Shown here: positions 12,143 through 22,361 of the stretch, piece after piece
Layout of the letters: each line of letters starts with the position of its first letter
Numbering within the stretch: position 1 is the stretch's first letter
DNA from: Chloroflexota bacterium
Lineage (GTDB): Bacteria > Chloroflexota > Dormibacteria > Dormibacterales > Dormibacteraceae
Assembly (NCBI GenBank): GCA_005887685.1
Contig: VBHJ01000010.1
Span: 1-32,925 of the forward strand
Direction: 5' to 3'
DNA: 32,925 nucleotides
Translations under genes and position numbers: made by a program
The notes under the pieces: model-generated
Seen by the model: only the letters and a program-made list of their open reading frames with translations
What the model was told of the DNA's origin: nothing
The model's database searches: none

Positions 12143-14278
12143 ATGTCTGAGGGCCATACCCAGCGGCTGGCAGCGATCGCGGAAGCGGCCGGCGCGTTCA
12201 GCGATGCCGTTCCGGACATCGAAGCCCTCCTTGGCATCGTCGCCGAGCAAATCTCGCGGGCGACTGGCGACTTTTGCGCCGTCGTGCTGCTCTCGGCCGA
12301 CGGGAGGCACGTCGAGCCGGTGGCCGCCTATCACCCAAATCCGCAGGTCATGGAGGACGCGCGACACCTGCTCGGCGTCCGTATGGACCTGGAAGCCTCA
12401 GGGGTGTGGAAATCCGTCCTTGGTGAGCGGCGACCCGTCGTGATCGATATCGATCCGGACCACCTGCCGCCCAACCTTGCGCCCCACCAGAGACGCCACA
12501 TCGAGAGGTGGCGAATGCGTCAATCGGCTTTGATCCCGATGGTCGCGCACGACACGGTCGTCGGCGGGCTGAACCTCAACCGCATGGAGGGAAGCACGCC
12601 CTTCAGCCAGGCCGACCTCGACCTGTTGGGCAGCCTGGCCGAACGCGCCGCGCGTGCGATCGCCACCGCGCAGCTGCTGCGTAACCAGAGACTTCTTGCG
12701 GACGAGCTCGAGACCATGGTTTCGGAGCGGACAAAACAGTTGAGCGATGCTCAAAGCGAGGCCGAGCGAGCCAACCGCGCCAAGAGCCGATTCCTCGCCA
12801 GCATGAGTCACGAGCTCCGGACCCCGCTGAACGCAATCATCGGGTTTTCGGAGCTGCTCAGCGATGAAGGGTCAGAACGTTTTGACCTGGTGACGCGTCG
12901 CCGATTTCTGGAGCAGATTCGCAGCAGCGGCAAGCACTTGCTGCAGCTCATCAACGACATACTCGATCTCTCGAAAGTCGAAGCGGGGCAGCTCGAGCTG
13001 CATTTCCAACCCATGTTGGTGGCGGACAGCATTCGCGAGGTGCTGGCCACCGCCGAACCGCTGGCACAGGCCAAGAAGATCTCCCTCGACAGCGAGTCGG
13101 AAACCGGCCTGCAGCTCGTCGCGGATGCCGGAAAGGTGAGGCAGATGCTGTTGAACCTTGCCTCTAATGCCATCAAATTCACCCCGGCCGGCGGCCGCGT
13201 GTCCGTCCGGGCGCGCCGCGCGGCGAGCTGGGTCGAAATCGCTGTCACCGATACCGGGATCGGCATCGCACAGGCGGATCTCCCCCTGCTCTTCGGTGAG
13301 TTTCAGCAGCTCGACCCAGGGCCAGGGCACCGCCAGGAGGGCACTGGACTCGGCCTGGCGCTGACCAAGCGCCTGGCCGCCCTCCACGGCGGCGACGTCA
13401 CCGTCGAAAGCGAGGTTGGGAAGGGGTCGACCTTCACGATCCGGTTGCCCGCCCAGGTCGCCGCGCCTGAGCACGCGCCGGCCTACACGCCCGAACCAGC
13501 CCGGCAAGCAGATCGCGGTCGGCCGCTCGTTCTGGTCGTCGAAGACAACCCGCAGGCGGCCGAGATCCTCGGCCGGCATCTCGAGGTCGGCGGCTTCGGA
13601 ATGGAAATCGCGCGCAACGGGACCGAGGCGCTGCGGATGGCCAGGGAGCTCAGACCCGTCGCCATAACCCTCGACATACTCCTGCCCGAGATAGATGGCT
13701 GGGAGGTCCTGACCCGGCTCAAACAGGACGAGTCGACGCGCAACATCCCGGTGGTGGTCGTCTCCGTGGTCGACAACCCCGCGCTCGGCCGCGCGCTCGG
13801 GGCGATCGACTACTTCGTCAAGCCCGTCGATGGAAAAGGACTGCTCTCAAGGCTCGACCAGTTCAGCTTCACCACGAAAGGGAAGCGCGAAGAAATCAAT
13901 GTCCTGGTGGTGGACGACGAGCAGGCAAACCTCGACCTGGTCGAGGGCCTGCTCAAGCCCGCGGGCTTCAGTGTGCTCCGGGCCAATGGCGGGCAAGAAG
14001 GGATCGAGATGGCAAAATCACGCCTGCCCAACCTGATCTTGCTCGACCTGATGATGCCGAAGGTCAGCGGGTTCGAGGTCGTCGAACAGCTCAGAGCGGA
14101 GGAGGCGACGCGGACGATCCCGATCATGGTCCTCACCGCGAAAACCCTGACCGAGGATGACAAGCGGTCGTTGAACGGACACGTCGCCGCGATCTTTCAG
14201 CGGAACTCCGTGGCGGGCACCGAGCTGATCGAGTGGCTGCGGGGGATCGTGCTGAAGACAGTCCCGAGCACCAGCTAG
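12143..14278 (+). CDS. GAF-domain hybrid histidine kinase with two receiver domains
   Basis: A 711-residue soluble sensor kinase. It has a GAF domain (about 20-190), a coiled linker (190-215), HisKA with His223 in SMSHELRTPLN, and HATPase_c with an N box (NLASNAIKF), DTGIGI and GTGLGL motifs up to about 445. REC1 begins at LVLVVEDN with phosphoacceptor Asp511 (TLDILLPE) and Lys in YFVKP. REC2 begins at NVLVVDDE with Asp635 (LLDLMMPK); its usual beta-5 Lys is replaced within IFQRNS. No HPt or output domain follows, so phosphate probably passes to a separate protein. There is no transmembrane segment. It starts at ATG 12143, 61 bp after the GHKL-peptidase. The stop overlaps the convergent small helical gene. 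Confidence 0.93.
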   Translation: MSEGHTQRLAAIAEAAGAFSDAVPDIEALLGIVAEQISRATGDFCAVVLLSADGRHVEPVAAYHPNPQVMEDARHLLGVRMDLEASGVWKSVLGERRPVVIDIDPDHLPPNLAPHQRRHIERWRMRQSALIPMVAHDTVVGGLNLNRMEGSTPFSQADLDLLGSLAERAARAIATAQLLRNQRLLADELETMVSERTKQLSDAQSEAERANRAKSRFLASMSHELRTPLNAIIGFSELLSDEGSERFDLVTRRRFLEQIRSSGKHLLQLINDILDLSKVEAGQLELHFQPMLVADSIREVLATAEPLAQAKKISLDSESETGLQLVADAGKVRQMLLNLASNAIKFTPAGGRVSVRARRAASWVEIAVTDTGIGIAQADLPLLFGEFQQLDPGPGHRQEGTGLGLALTKRLAALHGGDVTVESEVGKGSTFTIRLPAQVAAPEHAPAYTPEPARQADRGRPLVLVVEDNPQAAEILGRHLEVGGFGMEIARNGTEALRMARELRPVAITLDILLPEIDGWEVLTRLKQDESTRNIPVVVVSVVDNPALGRALGAIDYFVKPVDGKGLLSRLDQFSFTTKGKREEINVLVVDDEQANLDLVEGLLKPAGFSVLRANGGQEGIEMAKSRLPNLILLDLMMPKVSGFEVVEQLRAEEATRTIPIMVLTAKTLTEDDKRSLNGHVAAIFQRNSVAGTELIEWLRGIVLKTVPSTS

Positions 14279-14586
14279 CGCTGCTCCAGGTCCGTCCTCC
14301 GCTTGACCCAGTAGTCGAGCCGGTGCCGGAAGCGCTCGACCTGGGACGCCAGCACCGGCAGGTTGGTCTGCTCAGCCTCCCGTTGCGCCGCGCTCGGCAT
14401 CTTGGGGATGGCGCCGGCGAGGATGTCGAGCAGCTCCTCCTCCAGCTTCACCAGGTAGCTGTATACGGTCACCCACCGGCGGGCGTCCTCCAGCGACTCG
14501 GATTCGGGATTCTCTCCGAGGATCGGTCGATCCAGGTCGGCGCCTTCCCAGGCCGCTCCCGCAGCCTCCTCTTTTCTGGAGGCCAT
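14275..14586 (-). CDS. small two-helix signalling-island protein, copy A (W-x3-Y / W-x2-R motif family)
   Basis: A 103-residue, highly charged, predicted all-helical protein with no family I recognise. Helix 1 contains SLEDARRWVTVYSYLVKL (31-48) with W38 and Y42. Helix 2 contains LASQVERF (79-86) and ends WVKRRTDL (93-100). These blocks align convincingly with the 108-residue protein at 18327-18653 (shared GENP, SLE-x-ARRWV, RF-x2-R-x-D-x-W-x2-R). The frame is open upstream, but ATG 14586 precedes the conserved region with no better start. It follows the Y-family polymerase by 31 bp on the same strand, so it may be co-transcribed with the polymerase and PAS kinase. Its stop overlaps the hybrid kinase stop. 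Confidence 0.75.
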   Translation of the reverse strand: MASRKEEAAGAAWEGADLDRPILGENPESESLEDARRWVTVYSYLVKLEEELLDILAGAIPKMPSAAQREAEQTNLPVLASQVERFRHRLDYWVKRRTDLEQR

Positions 14587-14617
14587 GCGTCCATCTTGTT
14601 CCTTATCGCGTGAGAAG

Positions 14618-15910
14618 TCACGGCTTATTCGGCCTGGATTCATCAGGGTGTCCCGTATTACCAAACGCGATGCGGTCTCGCACCACTGGAGCCCGGCCGA
14701 GGAGGCGCGAGCGCTGCACCGCGTCTTCGCCAAACCGATCCCGTAAAGCGTCGACCGCCGCCTCGAGTCGCTCCTTGCGCGGCAGGACTGCCTCCCCGAA
14801 AAGGTCGAGCTGGCCTGCGCCACCGTCGACCAGGTCGGAGAGTCCCACGCCAAGCGTGCCGACCGTCCGCCTTGGGTCCCTGGCAGCGAGAAGGGCCAAC
14901 GCCGCCTGGTAGATCTCGTCGCCGGTCGAGATCGGATCAGGCTGTTTCGCCTGCTTCGAGAAGTGGCCGGCGTCCGGCCTGTACACGACGCCGACCGAGA
15001 CCACCCTGCCCCGCCTGGCGGCGGCCCGAAGGCGCCGGCCGACCATGTCAGACAGCCGCATGAGGAGCTCCTCCAGGTCTCGCTGTGAGGCGGTCGCATG
15101 CGCGAGCACGTGCGAATGGCTGTAGCTCTTCCGCCTGGTGGTCTCGAAGCCGCCCACCTCGAACCCGCGCAGGCGCATGCTCCAGCCTCTCGCCACCTCG
15201 GAGTGCATCCCGGCCAGGCGTAGCCGCGGCGGAGTCGCGCGCAAGAACTGAACGGGCGAGAGGATTCCGGCGCGAGAAAGGCGGCCGGCGGTGGCCTCGG
15301 CGATCCCGGACAGGTCGGTCAGCTGCAGCCGCTCGAACACCGACACAAGGTTGGTATGGTCGATGCGCTGCAGGCCATCGCGCTTGTCCAGGTTCGAGGC
15401 CTGCTTGGCCATCCAGATCGAGGTCGAGACGCCCACCGACGCGGTGACGCATGGGCCTATCTCCTCCCGAATTGCCCTCTTGACCGCGTGCGCGACGCCT
15501 TCCGGACCAAGCTTCTTGAGGTCTGGCGTGCCGGCCAGGTTCATCGAGGCCTCGTCGATCGACATGCGCAGGACGTCGGGGGTGTGCCGCTCGATGATCT
15601 CCATGAGCCTGTCCGACACCGTGCGGTAGAGCGGCGGATTGGGCTCGCGGACGACGATGGCCGGGAAGATCGACCTGGCTTCGAAAACGCGCATCCCGGT
15701 CTTGATGCCGAGGTCGCGCGCTTCGCGCGACGAGGAGACGATGGTCGCGGCGTCGGTGGCGTAGGCCGCGATCGCGACCGGCCGGCCGCGAAGCGCCTGG
15801 TCATGTTGCTGCTCGATCGACGCAAAGGCGCAATTGAGGTCGATGACCATGGTCGTCGGGTCGGCGGTGTTCAGCCCGAGCTCGACGGCCTCAGGGGACG
15901 GAGGGTCCAC
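14618..15910 (-). CDS. Y-family DNA polymerase (DinB/UmuC-like)
   Basis: A translesion polymerase of about 430 residues. The palm begins MVIDLNCAFASIEQQ, with the metal-binding Asp and the D-x-N pattern seen in UmuC-type enzymes. The second catalytic pair is in RMSIDEASM. A helix-hairpin-helix thumb region (LTDLSGIAEATAGRL) and a little-finger domain follow. Near the C-terminus GQLDLFG contains a QLxLF beta-clamp-binding motif. I place the start at GTG 15910 because the DPTTMVIDLN lead-in looks conserved; ATG 15850 is the alternative. It lies 41 bp downstream of a PAS kinase on the same strand. I see no LexA box. No umuD or imuA is nearby. Confidence 0.9.
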   Translation of the reverse strand: MDPPSPEAVELGLNTADPTTMVIDLNCAFASIEQQHDQALRGRPVAIAAYATDAATIVSSSREARDLGIKTGMRVFEARSIFPAIVVREPNPPLYRTVSDRLMEIIERHTPDVLRMSIDEASMNLAGTPDLKKLGPEGVAHAVKRAIREEIGPCVTASVGVSTSIWMAKQASNLDKRDGLQRIDHTNLVSVFERLQLTDLSGIAEATAGRLSRAGILSPVQFLRATPPRLRLAGMHSEVARGWSMRLRGFEVGGFETTRRKSYSHSHVLAHATASQRDLEELLMRLSDMVGRRLRAAARRGRVVSVGVVYRPDAGHFSKQAKQPDPISTGDEIYQAALALLAARDPRRTVGTLGVGLSDLVDGGAGQLDLFGEAVLPRKERLEAAVDALRDRFGEDAVQRSRLLGRAPVVRDRIAFGNTGHPDESRPNKP

Positions 15911-15951
15911 AACGAGCAAATGTTCGCACCTCAGGTCGTTGCGGGCAAGGG

Positions 15952-17106
15952 CTAGATCGTGGAGGGCAGCACCAGCGTGAACTCGCTGCCCATGCCCGGG
16001 GCAGACACCACGGTGATGTCGCCACCGTGTCGGGCCGCGATCTCCTTGCACAGGAAAAGGCCCAGCCCCGTTCCTGGAATGGTCACGTTCTCATCGGTTG
16101 GCAGCCGGCCGAAGCGCGTAAAGAGACGTGGCATATGCTCGGCGGCGATGCCGAGTCCCGCGTCGCGCACAGTGACGTAGGCCTGGGACTCCCGCCGGCC
16201 GACCCTGCAATGGACCTCTCCACCTTGCGGTGAGTACTTGAGCGCGTTGTCGATCAGGTTGGCGACGATCGTGGCTATCCGGAGCCGGTCGCCCCTGACG
16301 ACCACGTCGAGATCGCCGCCATCCATCAGGAGAAGCCGCCCCTCGGCCAGCGGCCGGAACACGTCGATCTGCTCCTGGGCCACCAATCGCAGATCGAAGG
16401 TCTCGTCTGCCAACTCGGGGGCGTCGTCTTCGAGGCGTGCGGTCTCGAGCATCTGCTCAACAAGGCGATCCATCTGCGCGAGCTTGATCTCGAGCAATCG
16501 CGAGACGGCCGGGATCTGAGCAGGCGGAATGGAACCGTCCGCGAGCATTGAGTTGTAACCGCGGATAACCGTCAGCGGTCCGCGAAGCTCGTGCGACGCG
16601 AGGTTGAGGAAATGTGTCTTGGTGCGCTCAAGCTCGGCCATGCGTTCGGCATGGGCTCGCAGCAGCATGGCTTCACGCTCACGTTCCGCGCTGCGGTGGA
16701 CCTCCTCGGCGTGCCGCTCACTGAGGTCCCGCGTGACCTTGCCGAAGCCGCGCAAACGGCCCGACTCGTCACGCAGCGCGGTGATGATCACGTTGGCCCA
16801 AAATCGCGTGCCATCCTTGCGGATGCGCCAGCCTTCTTCTTCATACCGGCCCTCGCGCTTGGCGACCTCGAGCTCCCAGTCGGGTTTGCGGTTCCGGACT
16901 GCTTCCGCGGGGTAGAAAACCGAGAAGTGCCGGCCGATGATCTCGTCTGCCGCGTACCCCTTGATCCGTTGCGCACCCTCGTTCCACGTGACGATCACGC
17001 CGGTTGGGTCGAGCATGAAAATTCCGTAATCGACCACACCGGAGACGAGGAGCGCGAACTGATCGCCGAGGTCCCTCGGCTCAGTCGTATTCGACTTCCG
17101 CAGCAC
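15952..17106 (-). CDS. PAS-domain sensor histidine kinase
   Basis: A 384-residue soluble kinase. The PAS domain spans about 18-130 (YGIFMLDPTGVIVTWNEGAQ, then GRHFSVFYPAE, ending GKVTRDLSERH, a PAS-PAC junction). A coiled linker precedes HisKA, with His172 in ASHELRGPL. HATPase_c shows the N box NLIDNALKYS (N287), DAGLGI (315-320) and GTGLGL (345-350). There is no transmembrane segment and no receiver. The PAS composition resembles heme- or flavin-binding redox sensors of the FixL/BphP-adjacent type, but the cofactor cannot be read. It starts with GTG 17106 after GGGGAA. It heads a likely operon with the Y-family polymerase and small protein A; its partner regulator may be one of the two in this island. 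Confidence 0.93.
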   Translation of the reverse strand: MLRKSNTTEPRDLGDQFALLVSGVVDYGIFMLDPTGVIVTWNEGAQRIKGYAADEIIGRHFSVFYPAEAVRNRKPDWELEVAKREGRYEEEGWRIRKDGTRFWANVIITALRDESGRLRGFGKVTRDLSERHAEEVHRSAEREREAMLLRAHAERMAELERTKTHFLNLASHELRGPLTVIRGYNSMLADGSIPPAQIPAVSRLLEIKLAQMDRLVEQMLETARLEDDAPELADETFDLRLVAQEQIDVFRPLAEGRLLLMDGGDLDVVVRGDRLRIATIVANLIDNALKYSPQGGEVHCRVGRRESQAYVTVRDAGLGIAAEHMPRLFTRFGRLPTDENVTIPGTGLGLFLCKEIAARHGGDITVVSAPGMGSEFTLVLPSTI

Positions 17107-17151
17107 TTCCCCGATCTTAAGGTTGAGGGGGCGGTCGGCGCAAAGCCTGGA

Positions 17152-18240
17152 TCAACCCCACACGGAGCGTGCCACCTTGCCCACCAGCTCCAACTTCTTG
17201 CGCTGGTCCTCGGCGGTCAGGCGGTTGCCTTCCATCGTGGATGCGAACCCGCACTGCGGGCTGAGCGCCAGTCGCTCCGGCGGCAGGTATCGCGACGCTT
17301 CGGCAATCCTTCGCTTGAGCTCTTCTTCGTGCTCGAGTCCAGGCTTCTTGCTGGTCACGAGGCCGAGCACCACGACCCGATCTTCCGGCACGTGCTGCAG
17401 TGGCTCGAATCCGCCCGATCGCTCGTCGTCATACTCCAGCAGGAAGCGGTTGAACCTTGTCCTTTCAAAGATTCGGGCGATCGGGCCATAGTCGCCGGCG
17501 GCGTAGAACTTGCTCTGGTTGTTGCCGCGGCAGATGTGGATCCCGAAGGTGACTCCGGGGTGGCCGGCGATGATGGCGTTGTCCATCTCGATGCAGGTGT
17601 CGATCAGGGTCTCCGGGTCGCTGCCGCGCTTGCGGTATCCCTCGCGGAGCTCGGGATCGAGCAGCGCGGCGTATTGCGGTGCATCGATCTGGACATACGT
17701 GCAGCCGAGGCGAACCAGCTCATCGACCTCGCGCCGGCTCAGGTCGACCACGTCGGCGAGATACGCGTCGCGCGTCGGATATGCGGCCTTCGACTTGTCG
17801 GGGTCGTAGTAGGCGGCAGCCTGCTGTGCGCTGATCATCGTGACCTTCGCCGCGGCGCCGGTGCTCGCCCGCAGGTAGGTGAACTCCTCGGCGGCCATGT
17901 TGCGCAGCGGACGCAGCTTCTCGACCACGACCGGTCGCTTGAAGACGAGCTCTTCTCCCTTTTCGTCTCGAAACGGGATGGCCCACCCACCGTACTTGTC
18001 GAAGCCGGCCATCGCGTCGACGAGGTGGCCAAAGAACGCGTAACGGCGCTGCTCGCCGTCGGTGATCACGTCGATCCCGGCTGAGGTCTGGACCTCGATC
18101 GCGTGGTCGACGGCCCTGTCCTCGATCTCCTTGAAGTGCGCCGGGTCTAGCTCGCCCGCTTCGAGCCGTCTCCTGGCCGCGACCAGAAAGTCCGGCCGCA
18201 GAAGGCTGCCCACGACCTCGGCTCGAACGTCATGAAGCAT
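17152..18240 (-). CDS. cobalamin-independent methionine synthase family protein (MetE C-terminal-like)
   Basis: A 362-residue single-domain protein matching the catalytic UROD/MetE-C barrel. The zinc ligands appear as IHICRGN (His and Cys), the acidic LEYDDERSGGF block and the C-terminal SPQCGF cysteine. The substrate-site sequence EVVGSLLRP opens the protein as in MetE-C. Lacking the N-terminal MetE half, it resembles core-MetE or relatives such as epoxyalkane:CoM transferase, so the methyl donor is uncertain. ATG 18240 follows GGGAGGGGGCG; the frame extends 15 codons further but without conserved sequence. It is divergent from small protein B and seems functionally unrelated to the signalling genes around it. 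Confidence 0.88.
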   Translation of the reverse strand: MLHDVRAEVVGSLLRPDFLVAARRRLEAGELDPAHFKEIEDRAVDHAIEVQTSAGIDVITDGEQRRYAFFGHLVDAMAGFDKYGGWAIPFRDEKGEELVFKRPVVVEKLRPLRNMAAEEFTYLRASTGAAAKVTMISAQQAAAYYDPDKSKAAYPTRDAYLADVVDLSRREVDELVRLGCTYVQIDAPQYAALLDPELREGYRKRGSDPETLIDTCIEMDNAIIAGHPGVTFGIHICRGNNQSKFYAAGDYGPIARIFERTRFNRFLLEYDDERSGGFEPLQHVPEDRVVVLGLVTSKKPGLEHEEELKRRIAEASRYLPPERLALSPQCGFASTMEGNRLTAEDQRKKLELVGKVARSVWG

Positions 18241-18326
18241 GGCTCGCCCCCTCCCAACCGATCGAGAGCATGATGACAGGTACAAATCTGGACGGTCCGG
18301 TTATCGGGTTATGAGAAGGGCAATGC

Positions 18327-18653
18327 ATGCAACGGCGTGAGATGACGATGGCGTTCCTCCAGCGACTCGGCGACCCTGGCTACCGCCTCCATGGTGAGAA
18401 CCCTGCGACGGCCACCCTCGAGCAGGCCCGCCGCTGGGTCGACACCTACGACGAGTTGATCAAGTTCAAGCGCCAGCTGATCGGCCTGAGCCACGAATAC
18501 GCTGAACGAGCACAGCCGGAGGTGGCGCGAGCCATCCGCGAAACCGATGTGGTCTTGCTAGAGACACAGGCCTCGCGCTTTGAGCTGCGGCGTGACTTCT
18601 GGAAGATCCGGGTGGCCGAAATGAAGGGCGGCCGGAGCCGCGGCCCGGACTGA
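18327..18653 (+). CDS. small two-helix signalling-island protein, copy B
   Basis: A 108-residue all-helical protein, the closest relative of the one at 14275-14586. Its first helix has LEQARRWVDTYDELIKFKRQ (31-50) with W37 and Y41. The second has LLETQASRFELRRDFWKIR (77-95) and ends with the W-x2-R-x-A-E-M block (92-99). ATG 18327 follows AGAAGGG with 6-nt spacing; internal ATGs at codons 6 and 8 are alternatives. Its TGA overlaps the proposed CTG start of the cheB-like gene, so it is probably translated with cheB and cheR. No catalytic residues or membrane segments are visible; an adaptor or regulator role is a guess from context. Confidence 0.8.
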   Translation: MQRREMTMAFLQRLGDPGYRLHGENPATATLEQARRWVDTYDELIKFKRQLIGLSHEYAERAQPEVARAIRETDVVLLETQASRFELRRDFWKIRVAEMKGGRSRGPD

Positions 18654-19252
18654 GCTCGGCTGTCCGGCCGCCGACCTCTTTCGACATCATCGCCATCGCG
18701 GCTTCGGCCGGCGGCGTCATCGCCCTCACCGAGGTCCTTGCGCATCTGCCTGAAAGCCTCGGGGCGATCATCGTCATCGTGCAGCACGTCGACCCGCGCC
18801 ACCGAAGCCTCATGCCCCAGGTCATCGGCCGTCAGTCGCGGATGCCCGTCGTGCACGCGGAAGAGGGGGCCCGGCTGGAGAGAGCGCACATCTACCTTGC
18901 GCCGCCTGACCGTCATCTGCTCGTCAAGCGCGGCGGCACGCTCACCCTCACCGACACAGAGCTGGTCAACTTCGTAAGGCCTTCGGCCGACCTGTTGTTC
19001 GAATCCGTCGCGGCGGTGTACGGGCCGCGTGCGATCGCGGTTGTGCTGACCGGCAGCGGCCACGACGGTGCCCTGGGCGTGACGGCGATCAAACAGCGGG
19101 GCGGCACCGTGGTCGCGCAAGATGAAGCCACGTCAGAATTTTTCGGGATGCCATCCGCCGCGATCAAGACTGGTGCGGTTGACTTCGTCCTGGCGCTTGA
19201 CGAGATCGCGCCGAAGCTCGTGGGACTCGTGGCCGCGGAAGCGCTCAATTGA
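18650..19252 (+). CDS. cheB: CheB-like protein-glutamate methylesterase (stand-alone catalytic domain, non-canonical start)
   Basis: A roughly 200-residue CheB catalytic domain without a receiver. Numbered from codon 18650, the triad is Ser19 (AASAGG), His46 (VQHVDP) and Asp139 (GSGHDGALG), with the C-terminal QDEATSEFFGMP block also conserved. The first GTG in frame (18779) would delete the catalytic serine, and no ATG, GTG or TTG lies between the upstream gene's end and the conserved strand FDIIAIAAS. CTG 18650, which overlaps the preceding TGA as CTGA, is the likeliest start. It is followed by cheR with a 4-bp overlap. Such receiver-less CheB proteins usually act in alternative, non-flagellar pathways. 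Confidence 0.85.
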   Translation: MSSAVRPPTSFDIIAIAASAGGVIALTEVLAHLPESLGAIIVIVQHVDPRHRSLMPQVIGRQSRMPVVHAEEGARLERAHIYLAPPDRHLLVKRGGTLTLTDTELVNFVRPSADLLFESVAAVYGPRAIAVVLTGSGHDGALGVTAIKQRGGTVVAQDEATSEFFGMPSAAIKTGAVDFVLALDEIAPKLVGLVAAEALN

Positions 19253-21075
19253 AGCTGGAAGCGGGAACCGATTTCGAGAGCCTGATCGAATACCTCCGCG
19301 ACGCTCGAGGGTTCGACTTCACGGGCTACAAGCGGGCCAGCCTGATGCGCAGAGTCGCCTCCAGGTGCTCGGAGCTGGGGATCGACAACTTCCGCGAGTA
19401 TCACGACTACCTGCAGGTCCATCCCGACGAGTTCGTGACCCTGTTCAACAAGATCCTGATCAACGTGACCGAGTTCTTCCGGGACCGGTCGGCGTGGGAC
19501 TACGTACGCGATCACCTCGTGCCGCGGATCGTCGCAAGAGACGGCGACATCCGGATCTGGAGCGCCGGGACTTCGTCCGGCGAGGAGGCGTTCTCGGCGG
19601 CCATCCTGTTCTGCGAGGCCATCGGGGAGGTGTCGTACCTCGACCGGGTCAAGATCTATGCCACAGACGTCGACGACGAGGCTTTGAGCAAGGCGCGCGC
19701 GGGGTACACCGCCAAGGAGCTGGAGTCTCTCGGCGGGGACTTCAAGGAACGGTACTTCGATCGCCAGGGCGAGCGGTTTGTCTTCCGCACCGAGTTGCGG
19801 CGGGCGATGATCTTCGGGCGGCACGACCTGACCCAGGACGCGCCGATCTCGCGGCTCGACCTCTTGATCTGCCGGAACACGCTCATCTACTTGACGGCGG
19901 AGACTCAGGCCCGGATCCTCGCTCGGTTTCATTACGCCCTAAACGACGACGGCTACCTGTTTGTCGGACGCGCCGAGATGCTGCTGACGCATGCGGCCCT
20001 GTTCACGCCAGTGGAGTTGAAGGAGCGCCTGTTCACCAAGGTGGCCAGGCTCCAGCTGCGAGAACGGCTGATGCTTCTTGCTCAGTCGGGCAGCACCGAT
20101 GCGTCAAACCATGTCGCCCGCCAGCTGCGCGTACGCGAGCTCGCGACCGAGGGAGCGCCGTTCCCCCAGGTCGTGATCGACTCAGGCGGAATCCTGGTGA
20201 GCGCGAACCAGCCCGCCCGCGAGCTGTTCGAGGTGCCGCTCACCGACATCGGCCGCGCGCTGAAGGATCTTCAGCTCTCCTACAACCCGATCGACATGAG
20301 AACGCCGATCGACAAGGTCAGCCGAGACCGTCAAGCCACGACGATGCCGGGCGCCGAGATCAAAGGCACCGACGGGACCTCCAGAATGTTTGACGTTCAC
20401 GTCGCCCCACTGATTGACGAGGATGGGTCGCTGGTGGGAACGGCCATCAACTTTTTCGACGTGTCGCACCTCATGCGCCTCCGCGCCGACGTCGATCGGA
20501 TGAGACAGGAGCTGCAGTCGGGCAAGGAGGAGCTCGAGACCACCAATGAAGAGCTCCAGTCCACCGTGGAGGAGCTCGAGACGACCAACGAGGAGCTTCA
20601 GTCGACGAACGAGGAGCTCGAGACCTTGAACGAAGAGCTCGAATCGACGAACGCCGAGCTCGAGAGCATCAACACCGACCTTCGGCTCCGGACCGGAGAA
20701 GTGGAGCGGCTGAACACACTGCTCCTCGCGATCACGGGGAATATCGAGGTTGGGGCGGCCGTCCTGGACGCCATGTTTCGAGTCCAGGTGTGGAACGAGC
20801 GCGCGGCCGATCTTTGGGGCATAAGGTCTGACGAGACGCTGGGGAGATCGTTCTTCGACCTGGACATCGGGCTGCCCGCTGAGCAGCTGAATGAGATGAT
20901 CCAGGCCGGGAGTGGAGGCCACCCGCGCCACGGAGAGCTGATCGTTGACGCGACGACGCGAAAAGGCCGTCATATTCGCTGCCGCGTCATCGCGCACACG
21001 CTCGGCGACGGGGAACGCCCGAGTGGCGTCGTCGTGGTGATGGAGGAGCTGAAACCTGAGGTGGCGCGGCTCTAG
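19249..21075 (+). CDS. cheR: CheR methyltransferase with PAS, coiled coil and second PAS domain
   Basis: A 608-residue protein. It contains the CheR N-terminal helical domain (about 8-65, with TGYKRASLMRRV), a SAM-dependent methyltransferase (75-270) with motif SAGTSSGEE (105-113) and CRNTLIYL (208-215), a PAS-like region (about 300-410) ending INFFDVSHL, an unusually regular coiled coil of EEL-x3-N heptads (427-478), and a C-terminal PAS (about 490-600). This is the classic CheR-PAS arrangement often fused to CheB and a kinase; here CheB is a separate gene just upstream. It starts with TTG 19249, overlapping the cheB stop (TTGA). No receptors, CheA or CheW are in the window, so the methylated target is unknown. 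Confidence 0.92.
   Translation: MKLEAGTDFESLIEYLRDARGFDFTGYKRASLMRRVASRCSELGIDNFREYHDYLQVHPDEFVTLFNKILINVTEFFRDRSAWDYVRDHLVPRIVARDGDIRIWSAGTSSGEEAFSAAILFCEAIGEVSYLDRVKIYATDVDDEALSKARAGYTAKELESLGGDFKERYFDRQGERFVFRTELRRAMIFGRHDLTQDAPISRLDLLICRNTLIYLTAETQARILARFHYALNDDGYLFVGRAEMLLTHAALFTPVELKERLFTKVARLQLRERLMLLAQSGSTDASNHVARQLRVRELATEGAPFPQVVIDSGGILVSANQPARELFEVPLTDIGRALKDLQLSYNPIDMRTPIDKVSRDRQATTMPGAEIKGTDGTSRMFDVHVAPLIDEDGSLVGTAINFFDVSHLMRLRADVDRMRQELQSGKEELETTNEELQSTVEELETTNEELQSTNEELETLNEELESTNAELESINTDLRLRTGEVERLNTLLLAITGNIEVGAAVLDAMFRVQVWNERAADLWGIRSDETLGRSFFDLDIGLPAEQLNEMIQAGSGGHPRHGELIVDATTRKGRHIRCRVIAHTLGDGERPSGVVVVMEELKPEVARL
20527..20682 (+). repeat. in-frame heptad-coding repeats in cheR
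   Basis: About seven tandem 21-base units encode the EEL-x3-N heptad of the coiled coil linking the two PAS regions. The units are similar in DNA (recurring gaggagctcgaga-like strings) as well as protein. Such coiled coils transmit signals between PAS modules, and unit number can vary by slippage. Confidence 0.7.
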
Positions 21076-21485
21076 GCGACTGCGGCAATCGATTCGCGGA
21101 TCGACTCACGCCACCGGTCGACGAGCACCTCGAGCATCTCCACCTCGGCCGCGAGCTGGTATCTCTCGGACGGTGGCATGTCGGAGGCCGACCGCCGCAA
21201 CTTCGCCGCCAGCTTTTCAGCCATCTCGACCAGGCGGCGGTACGCCACAGGCCAGTAATCCGGCGTCGACGGCGACCCCCACCGCAACATCGATGCGGAG
21301 TAGCCGGTTTGTGCGGTATCCGTCTCCAGCCGCATGTGCTCGACCCGGCCCCGAAGCGATTCGAGCGGCCGCTGAGTCAGCCGGCGCTCGAGCGTCGCCA
21401 GGATCAGTCGCTTCGACTGCAGCATCAGCAGGCGGGCCGAGATGAGAGTCTCGGCGATCGACGTCACAGGCATCTGCTCGCTCAT
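21072..21485 (-). CDS. helical hypothetical protein coupled to the winged-helix gene
   Basis: A 137-residue, predicted all-helical, charged protein of no family known to me. A C-terminal half with YWPVAYRRLVEMAEKL (77-92) and a second helix ending VDRWRESIRESI may be a diverged relative of the two-helix module in this island (W78-x3-Y82), but the second-helix signature is weak, so membership is tentative. The N-terminal half (SARLLMLQSKRLILATLERR) is another long helix. The ATG overlaps the TGA of the upstream winged-helix gene (ATGA), a sign of coupled translation. It ends 4 bp into the cheR 3' end on the opposite strand. Confidence 0.75.
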   Translation of the reverse strand: MSEQMPVTSIAETLISARLLMLQSKRLILATLERRLTQRPLESLRGRVEHMRLETDTAQTGYSASMLRWGSPSTPDYWPVAYRRLVEMAEKLAAKLRRSASDMPPSERYQLAAEVEMLEVLVDRWRESIRESIAAVA

Positions 21486-22021
21486 CCGTCCAGGCCTCGA
21501 CCCAGGCCGGCCATGCAGTAGCCGCGATTCCTCTCGACCGTGATGACCTCGCCGAGCCCAACCGCTCGCAAGCGGTTTCGCAACCGCATGATGTAGGTGC
21601 GGACTTGCGCGTCGGACAGGCGCGAATTCTGCCAGGCGAGCGTCGCCAGCTGCTTGCTTGTGAACGGGCGTTGCGGGTGACGGAGGAGGAAGTCGAGGAG
21701 GTCCGCCTCACGGCGTGTCAGCGACAGGGATTTACCGCCGTAGGTGAGGGTGTGGTCCCTGCGGTCGATCACGACGCCCGCCAGCTCAGCGTGCCGGTCG
21801 CGCCACGTCGCCAGCCGCTGCTCAATCCAGCCCAGGTTGCTCCTGAGCTCGTCCACCTCGCCTGATCCGTCGGCGCGCGAGATCACGGAGCGCAGGACGG
21901 ACACCATCTCTTCGTAGATGGCGATCCAGCCCGCCACCTCCGGAAGGGCGGAAGTTGCCAGGTCCTCGCCCGGGAACTCCCGCCAAGCGCGCCCCGGCTC
22001 CTCGAGCACCTTGGCTTCCAT
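21482..22021 (-). CDS. two-helix module (copy C) fused to OmpR/PhoB-type winged-helix DNA-binding domain
   Basis: A 179-residue transcription factor. Residues about 25-80 form the island's two-helix module: W32-x3-Y36 in helix 1 and W73-x2-R76-x-A78-E79-L80 at the end of helix 2. Residues 85-175 are an OmpR-type winged helix (LTRREADLLDFLL, then RPFTSKQLATLAW, a recognition helix VRTYIMRLRNRLR, and the wing ITVERNRGYCM). There is no receiver domain, so the two-helix module sits where a signal-input domain normally would. Start ATG 22021. It heads a two-gene operon with the helical protein downstream and is divergent from copy D. Confidence 0.85.
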   Translation of the reverse strand: MEAKVLEEPGRAWREFPGEDLATSALPEVAGWIAIYEEMVSVLRSVISRADGSGEVDELRSNLGWIEQRLATWRDRHAELAGVVIDRRDHTLTYGGKSLSLTRREADLLDFLLRHPQRPFTSKQLATLAWQNSRLSDAQVRTYIMRLRNRLRAVGLGEVITVERNRGYCMAGLGRGLDG

Positions 22022-22094
22022 GGCTCTGAGCCTACTCCGACTTGAGAATTTTTGACCAGCAATGTTGCGGTAGGCGGTCTATGGTGACCTCGGC

Positions 22095-22361
22095 ATGGCT
22101 GCCGGGAGCAGCAGGATCAAGTCAGCACGCCGGGGGGCATACACAGGGCAAGGGGCCGAAGCCCGGAGGGAGGGCCAGGCCCCTTTGCCATCTTTGCAGC
22201 CCTACGTCCAGGGTATCGAGAGCCTGGAGGAGATCTGCGGCTGGCTGGGCACCTTCCGGGAGCGGCTTCGCATCGCTCACACTGACGACCAGCCGGGCAT
22301 CGCGCTCGTTGTCCGGCAACTGGAGGCCCGTTACCTGACGAGGCGGGCCGAGCTGTCCTGA
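22095..22361 (+). CDS. small two-helix signalling-island protein, copy D
   Basis: An 88-residue protein. The conserved part begins near residue 40: IESLEEICGWLGTFRERL with W50 and F54, then LVVRQLEARYLTRRAEL with the Y80-x2-R83-x-A85-E86-L87 ending. The loop between helices is shorter than in the other copies. The start is doubtful: ATG 22095 has no Shine-Dalgarno and residues 1-35 are encoded by a GC-rich hairpin-forming stretch; TTG 22185, about 10 bases after GGAGGGAGGG, is an alternative giving about 58 residues. It lies 30 bp upstream of a NarL-type response regulator on the same strand. Confidence 0.7.
   Translation: MAAGSSRIKSARRGAYTGQGAEARREGQAPLPSLQPYVQGIESLEEICGWLGTFRERLRIAHTDDQPGIALVVRQLEARYLTRRAELS
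22147..22189 (+). promoter_or_regulatory. GC-rich hairpin at the start of copy D
   Basis: GGCAAGGGGCC (22147-22157) can pair with GGCCCCTTTGCC (22178-22189), leaving one bulged T. The loop contains a further GCCC/GGGC pairing and a purine-rich GGAGGGAGGG that could serve as Shine-Dalgarno for TTG 22185. If translation starts there, the stem would sequester that start. It may simply be coding DNA if ATG 22095 is used. Confidence 0.35.

Follow-up and report, generated by a model that had tools for sequence, protein, structure and literature searches.

A helical-hairpin domain that stands alone or precedes an OmpR/PhoB-type winged helix in a class of Chloroflexota, and a candidate promoter box for the winged-helix proteins

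Our analyses of a 32,925-nucleotide stretch of the genome of a Chloroflexota bacterium from soil (assembly GCA_005887685.1, contig VBHJ01000010.1, positions 1 to 32,925; hereafter the window) revealed that three of its proteins, namely A, B and the N terminus of C, share a real helical-hairpin domain that has no Pfam or NCBIfam family. We label this domain F, and use FW for proteins in which the F hairpin is joined to an OmpR/PhoB-type winged helix and a receiver domain is absent; C is the FW protein of the window. In relatives, genes for standalone F and for FW are paired in gene order and an 18-base-pair (bp) box recurs upstream of them. The box co-occurs with one FW subtype, and its variants covary, with exceptions, with variants of the FW recognition helix. 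On balance we favor the view that FW is a receiver-less activator acting at the box, and that it is tuned by F through the hairpin that the two have in common.

A sequence-only reading of this DNA had set out five open reading frames with characteristic motifs, all of which were recovered (A, B, C, D and E; Table 1), and had proposed a recurrent two-helix module in four of them, which is firm for A, B and C and suggestive for D. A search with B across the whole of its own genome found A with an E value of 1.9e-10, and among 61 genomes (the own genome and 60 relatives) matches at E 0.1 or better were obtained for A in 49 and for B in 50, with up to 13 per genome. We then scored the proteins with an F profile of 64 rows, from which C, D and E were excluded and in which C-like hairpins of other genera were included. 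C scored 28.4 bits as a whole protein and 32.8 bits with its N terminus alone, compared to 10.9 bits for the best of 1915 scored shuffles, and E scored 21.4 bits versus 13.8 for the best of 1978 scored shuffles; D was not recovered by the profile (0.2 bits, E = 60). Three positions of a 62-row F alignment are invariant, namely the E of GEDP, a W and a Y, and four more (an A, an R, a W and a second R) are near-invariant. A, B and C all match the profile and carry the E of GEDP and the W and Y of helix 1, together with the R, W and R of helix 2. Thus, the profile, shuffle and profile–profile scores make membership firm for A, B and C, probable for E and suggestive for D. A coincidental resemblance of unrelated helices as the source of the shared motifs is ruled out for A, B and C by the profile, shuffle and whole-genome statistics, and the profile and genome statistics speak against it for E as well; this explanation, which holds in part for D as the protein that the profile missed, is vanishingly improbable overall.

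The helical hairpin anticipated from the motifs was predicted for both B and C. Specifically, AlphaFold2 models B as two long antiparallel helices (31-61 and 64-101) that form a hairpin, with predicted local distance difference test (pLDDT) values mostly of 92-96 in the helices, and C as a shorter hairpin (helices 26-49 and 53-80; pLDDT mostly 77-87) followed by a winged helix. Helix 1 carries its conserved residues where it begins and helix 2 where it ends, which, as judged from the secondary structure, would place both sets at the one open end of the hairpin. The description of the module as unnamed also stood. In Pfam and NCBIfam, A, B, D and E had no convincing family match and C matched only through its C-terminal Trans_reg_C; a search of F against profiles from the Protein Data Bank gave nothing significant (best E 0.56), and Foldseek with B gave no match at E 0.001 or better. 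PHROGs yielded weak F matches only (best E 0.002, a single member), the plasmid collection yielded none and the phage collection one, at E 1. When 62 F members were scanned singly, scattered weak hits were obtained (best E 0.0056 in Pfam and 0.0013 in NCBIfam among the families listed), with no listed Pfam family matched by more than five of the 62. A literature search covering titles and the starts of abstracts found nothing on an F or FW family. A two-helix hairpin near kinase genes, as in the window, would be expected of a divergent HPt/DHp-like phosphotransfer domain, but the 62 members showed no HPt or HisKA match (in the best 25 of 40 Pfam families listed), no histidine is invariant among them and the Foldseek search with B was empty at the threshold given. 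Membership of F in HPt/DHp was rejected for want of a conserved phospho-histidine and of a Pfam match, and we consider such an identity highly improbable.

The earlier view of C as a hairpin fused to a winged helix was borne out by the PF00486 match and the predicted fold, which agree, and in Foldseek searches the winged helix matched the DNA-binding domains of PhoB and ArlR. Of the parts that make up an OmpR/PhoB response regulator, C has the winged helix and lacks the receiver with its phospho-acceptor Asp: the Pfam scan of C found no receiver domain, and the hairpin is predicted in that place. In tblastn searches, full-length alignments of C to FW proteins (around 1e-20) were obtained at many loci of the class. 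FW, including C, is by its sequence and predicted domains a class-wide subfamily of putative receiver-less OmpR/PhoB-type regulators. It resembles the OmpR/PhoB regulators in its C-terminal Trans_reg_C winged helix and in the position of the box 10 bp before a −10 element, and differs from them in having an unnamed hairpin in place of the receiver, often with a standalone copy of that hairpin in addition. CadC/ToxR-like proteins and SARPs also have an OmpR-type winged helix without a receiver, but theirs is N-terminal and is followed by membrane-sensor or BTAD/TPR parts, whereas that of FW is C-terminal, behind the hairpin. Published work on such proteins includes reports on CadC (PMC5430869) and AfsR (PMC10936776).

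The pairing of F and FW genes emerged from 41 mapped loci, comprising the window and 40 loci picked from match lists, with heuristic gene calls. These contain 31 FW genes in 28 loci, and 26 of the 31 have a standalone F gene within 1.5 kilobases (kb), in tandem (12), divergent (12) or convergent (2) arrangement. As a check on this selection, 30 loci (L207-L236, one per genome) were chosen by FW score alone: 25 have a standalone F within 1.5-kb flanks, four do not, and in the remaining locus (L214) the contig ends within FW. About 7 kb separate A from C, the presumed pair of the window. The 41 mapped loci yielded no open reading frame that contains two F domains.

Upstream regions of the F and FW genes revealed the box. 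Among 75 such regions, with near-identical pairs excluded, one word was common to up to 14 others, compared to at most 5 in one shuffled set, and some of the regions sharing the word are related to each other. A box weight matrix scored above 17 in 20 of the 75 regions, two of which represent one shared site, and the maximum among shuffles was 14.1. The matrix was trained on these same regions and the box patterns were derived from sites in the same genomes; independent evidence comes from the controls with reversed patterns and from bases that the pattern does not cover. In 26 chosen genomes a relaxed pattern (at most one mismatch) found 99 sites versus 8 for the reversed control, and the exact 18-bp box found 63 sites in 25 of 110 genomes of the class with no control hits. 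Within 40 further regions, mainly around sites away from F, the midpoint lay outside a called gene for 50 of 55 sites. The alignment of 78 sites, many of them orthologous, gave an element of about GTTRCTGAYYTTNTTAYG that is separated by 10 bp from nAnnnT; the A (92%) and the T (68%) of this −10-like element are both outside the searched pattern. The pho box and the PhoP box have the same placement, 10 bp before the −10 element, as sites of OmpR/PhoB-type class II activators. Class II spacing, with the operator about 10-11 bp before the −10, was found in the 78 aligned sites and in the window element described below. GTTRC and GTTAY inside the box resemble a direct repeat, and direct-repeat half-sites are reported for KdpE (PMC3264566).

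The presence of the box goes with the type of FW. We defined type-1 FW as a match better than 1e-60 to the FW protein of locus L109. Type 1 was found in 31 genomes, 24 of which have the exact box, versus 1 of the 79 genomes without type 1. The same contrast between type-1 and non-type-1 genomes was observed within genera g1 (4/4 versus 0/13), g2 (5/5 versus 0/1), g7 (1/1 versus 0/1) and g19 (1/1 versus 0/3), and g28 shows the opposite trend, with the exact box in 0/5. Two species lacking type-1 FW, G033 (g7) and G030 (g2), have no exact box; exact sites number 7 in G022 and 6 in G366, the respective sister species. The seven type-1 genomes without the exact box are G025, which has a site with one mismatch, five of genus g28, and G434. 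The recognition helix of FW in box-bearing genomes reads EEVRNYV.R.RK with small variations, and of 30 type-1 loci that were fetched, 29 contain EEVRNY and the other one is truncated at a contig end. Five g28 loci have the helix L/MPEEVRNYVTR and the variant box GTTGCTGAACTTYTTGCG, and a third FW type (L108, L114, L115) has LPEESLRTYI or LPEETLRTYI and the element RTGCTGCTTTTGGTGC. FW of the window type has the recognition helix RLSDAQVRTYIMRLRNRL, and the element conserved between genes C and D is TTTTGACCCCGAATGTTGCG-like, 10 bp before a TATSGT-like hexamer; the window itself carries TTTTGACCAGCAATGTTGCG in this place, a candidate operator of C-type FW. These combinations suggest that box variants mostly track recognition-helix variants. 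With a pattern for the C-type element, derived from those same C/D-place sites, 18 of the 110 genomes each gave a single match; of these matches, 15 are at the C/D place and 3 are elsewhere, and the control gave 3 hits. The sites thus being almost all at the C/D place, with 3 control hits besides, a wider regulon is not indicated for the C-type element; and as it was seen once in the window genome, a wide regulon would be a feature of the relatives.

Up to three genes per box site were taken as linked; the 154 proteins so obtained, for which some regions were retrieved twice, form 45 clusters. Twenty chosen proteins were compared to Pfam. Eleven matched above the cut-off (YGGT, Ice_binding, Sortase, Transgly_assoc, CsbD, which is just above it, DUF1003, LapA, kinase, zf-dskA_traR, GH39 and HTH_17), five only below it (a second LapA, Phosphatase-like_N, DUF5670, YflT and zf-C2H2), and four gave no match. 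Read from these Pfam names, the box-linked genes appear to be of stress and envelope flavor. In locus L109 (6904-8575), a box-linked F/FW pair is followed by a protein with an ice-binding domain and by a sortase. SigB-type and PhyR/EcfG general stress systems have targets of the CsbD, YflT-like and Transgly_assoc kind; the box-linked genes appear similar in flavor, whereas the F/FW box is tied to an OmpR-type regulator.

From these patterns we infer DNA binding and activation by FW, a pairing of F with FW, and a role in stress. In the mechanism that we favor, the F hairpin of FW would take the place of the OmpR/PhoB receiver, and FW would bind the box in lieu of a −35 element, with the box ending 10 bp before the −10; type-1 FW would recognize GTTGCTGACTTTGTTA-type DNA. 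Bound FW would recruit RNA polymerase by class II activation at the F and FW genes and, in several genera, at a handful of further stress- or envelope-type genes. Standalone F (A, and probably B and E) would pair with the FW hairpin and so tune or restrain FW, and because the F genes themselves carry the box, the circuit would be one of negative feedback. Id-type helix-loop-helix inhibitors of eukaryotes likewise employ a dimerizing helix module with and without a DNA-binding part; they are unrelated to F/FW, and the likeness is one of analogy, with F:FW pairing a prediction. More tentatively, F/FW may constitute a lineage-specific general-stress switch, with a dimerizing hairpin as input and box-controlled standalone F as brake, that does the job performed in other bacteria by sigma-B or PhyR/EcfG.

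Several observations weigh against this mechanism. The one genome without type-1 FW that has the exact box is G028, in which no FW was detected and which is 59% complete. The g1 contrasts mostly rest on the F/FW locus itself, so the box and FW may come and go as one locus. G434 has a helix of the g28 type, LLPEEVRNYVTR, yet no nearby box within two mismatches; L233 (G454) has no box near its FW and one elsewhere; and in G029 and G047, which have F/FW, neither the box nor a known variant turned up in the searches made. Many sites and loci are orthologous, and the counts are thus not independent events. By heuristic target calls, 73 of 92 box sites have a called downstream gene and 19 do not, and the stress label derives from the Pfam names of 20 chosen proteins, 11 of them above the cut-off. 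Proteins with a receiver and a winged helix, encoded next to FW genes in L104, L105 and L110, could be alternative binders of the box.

These last proteins (L104:5669-6412, L105:6282-6998 and L110:4837-5610) are possible competitors or partners of FW at the same box. A different proposal is that the box is the promoter element of an alternative sigma factor of the general-stress type that also drives F and FW, which would make FW binding unnecessary. Such a factor would account for the consistent orientation of the box toward the downstream gene, the fixed distance to the −10-like element and the stress-type targets. The conserved stretch of about 18 bp is, however, longer than a typical −35, the −10 (nAnnnT) is weakly constrained, and the presence of the box follows FW subtype while its variants mostly follow those of the recognition helix; we regard the sigma-factor explanation as unlikely, and prefer an activator acting at the box.

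F was found in 78 of the 110 genomes of the class, in up to 13 copies each, and was absent from all six listed genomes of family f4. Among the near relatives of the window genome are the metagenome-assembled genomes 'Chloroflexi bacterium' CF_126 and CF_81. When 400 genomes of the phylum were sampled, with at most 12 candidates scored per genome, 35 genomes matched F at 1e-5, each being the window's own or of the same genus, family or class, and among the 365 that did not match, 20 listed ones also belong to that class. Phyla beyond Chloroflexota were covered by a limited peptide-pattern scan of contigs and by the plasmid and phage collections, so the restriction of F to the class applies within the phylum sample. 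A hairpin tree (62 sequences, 98 columns, C excluded, many forks unresolved) joined 13 A orthologs to 13 standalone-type hairpins of other genera (support 97/84) and 15 FW hairpins in another group (89/97), with B elsewhere, in a 7-row clade supported at 100/100. A belongs to the subfamily that holds the FW partners of other genera, and B, located just upstream of cheB, to a distinct one. As A and B fall in separate groups of the tree, they appear to be older separate paralogs. Local duplication within the island, as the sequence-only reading had it, was therefore rejected: A groups with standalone F of other genera and not with B.

That reading had also stressed that the copies adjoin signaling genes, and saw in them an adaptor or input domain. 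The kinase, CheB/CheR and polymerase neighbors of the window recur, among the 41 mapped loci, only in loci of the same genus, so an adaptor for chemotaxis or kinase genes is not a general theme, and a general link of F to chemotaxis genes was rejected; what recurs is standalone F, FW and the promoter box. The adjacency to signaling genes survives to the extent that two-component genes are mildly enriched near F outside the window locus (17/217 within three genes versus 2/134 at a distance of at least five genes, p = 0.013). Of 36 loci outside the window group, which are partly related and not all independent, 12 have such genes within three genes of F, and receiver or kinase genes are found among the box-linked genes, too. 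Both observations would suit standalone F proteins that are sensors or adaptors between two-component kinases or receivers and FW, rather than feedback partners. Against this, 24 of the 36 loci lack such genes, neighbors vary between genera, and F has no invariant phospho-acceptor, the common H of DARHW being replaced by R in both A and B, and by G in C. We regard this adaptor role as possible but doubtful.

E and D are the less certain members. E, a weak fifth candidate in the original reading, was raised by its profile score and by profile–profile comparison to a probable F member: hhalign of E with F gave 86% and a score of 35.5, above the maximum of 24.1 in 100 column shuffles, with an E alignment of five rows only, and E lacks the GEDP part of the F signature. 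For D, hhalign with F gave 56% and a score of 27.0 (maximum of 200 shuffles, 22.4), and 9.4% with the D core alone. Kinship of D to F is suggestive, and D was rejected as a firm member on account of its profile score, an hhalign result that is suggestive at most and its weak core. A 13-row alignment contains relatives of D from its own genus, with 51-74% identity, and from one other genus, with 43-47%; most rows keep the start or the end, and D is thus probably a real gene; its codon score of 0.134 per codon is the lowest of the five open reading frames, and the gene caller skipped it. The first third of D (window 22095-22200, + strand) lies within a conserved block of GC-rich DNA, CCCTCCCTCCGG, with CCCCTTGCCC on the opposite strand (footprint of L237-L252), which may be a leader or RNA element besides coding for protein.

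Two further observations concern the signaling cluster of the window. At 18596-18779 (+ strand), CheB has no in-frame ATG, GTG or TTG before its AIAASAGG motif, CTG and ATC being the only candidates, and its open frame extends back into the 3′ end of B in a different frame; a standard start ahead of the motif is also missing in L094 and L095, and a GTG is present in L097. This might be explained by a rare start codon or by a frameshift from B to CheB, which would fuse an F hairpin to CheB. A Meth_synt_2 gene, cobalamin-independent methionine-synthase-like, is located inside the cluster (17152-18285, − strand).

Table 1. Positions of F-related genes, protein parts and the candidate operator in the window
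Feature	Coordinates	Strand	Evidence
A: standalone F-hairpin protein, 103 residues	14275..14586	−	F profile, 120 bits; tree
B: standalone F-hairpin protein, 108 residues	18327..18653	+	F profile, 110 bits; AlphaFold2; tree
C: FW protein, 179 residues, N-terminal F hairpin and OmpR/PhoB-type winged helix	21482..22021	−	Pfam; F profile; AlphaFold2; Foldseek
F-hairpin part of C, about residues 6-81	21779..22006	−	profile alignment; AlphaFold2 helices
Winged-helix part of C, residues 96-170, Trans_reg_C	21512..21736	−	PF00486, E 7.6e-15; Foldseek
C/D intergenic element, candidate operator of C-type FW	22050..22069	+	footprint, 17 sequences; exact pattern match
TATGGT, −10-like, 10 bp after the C/D element, directed to D	22080..22085	+	footprint; window match
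E: probable F relative, C-terminal half (residues about 72-128)	21072..21485	−	F profile; hhalign
D: small protein, possible shortened remote F relative	22095..22361	+	13-row alignment; hhalign; weak codon signal

With these results an unnamed, lineage-expanded domain gains a testable job. FW would represent a receiver-less variant of the common OmpR/PhoB class in which the input hairpin also occurs as a free-standing partner. For a group represented here by two named members, both of them metagenome-assembled genomes, the matched pairs of recognition helix and box would offer a clean system for predicting regulator specificity from sequence and for testing such predictions. If the proposal is true, F/FW would be a home-grown stress switch of this class of Chloroflexota.

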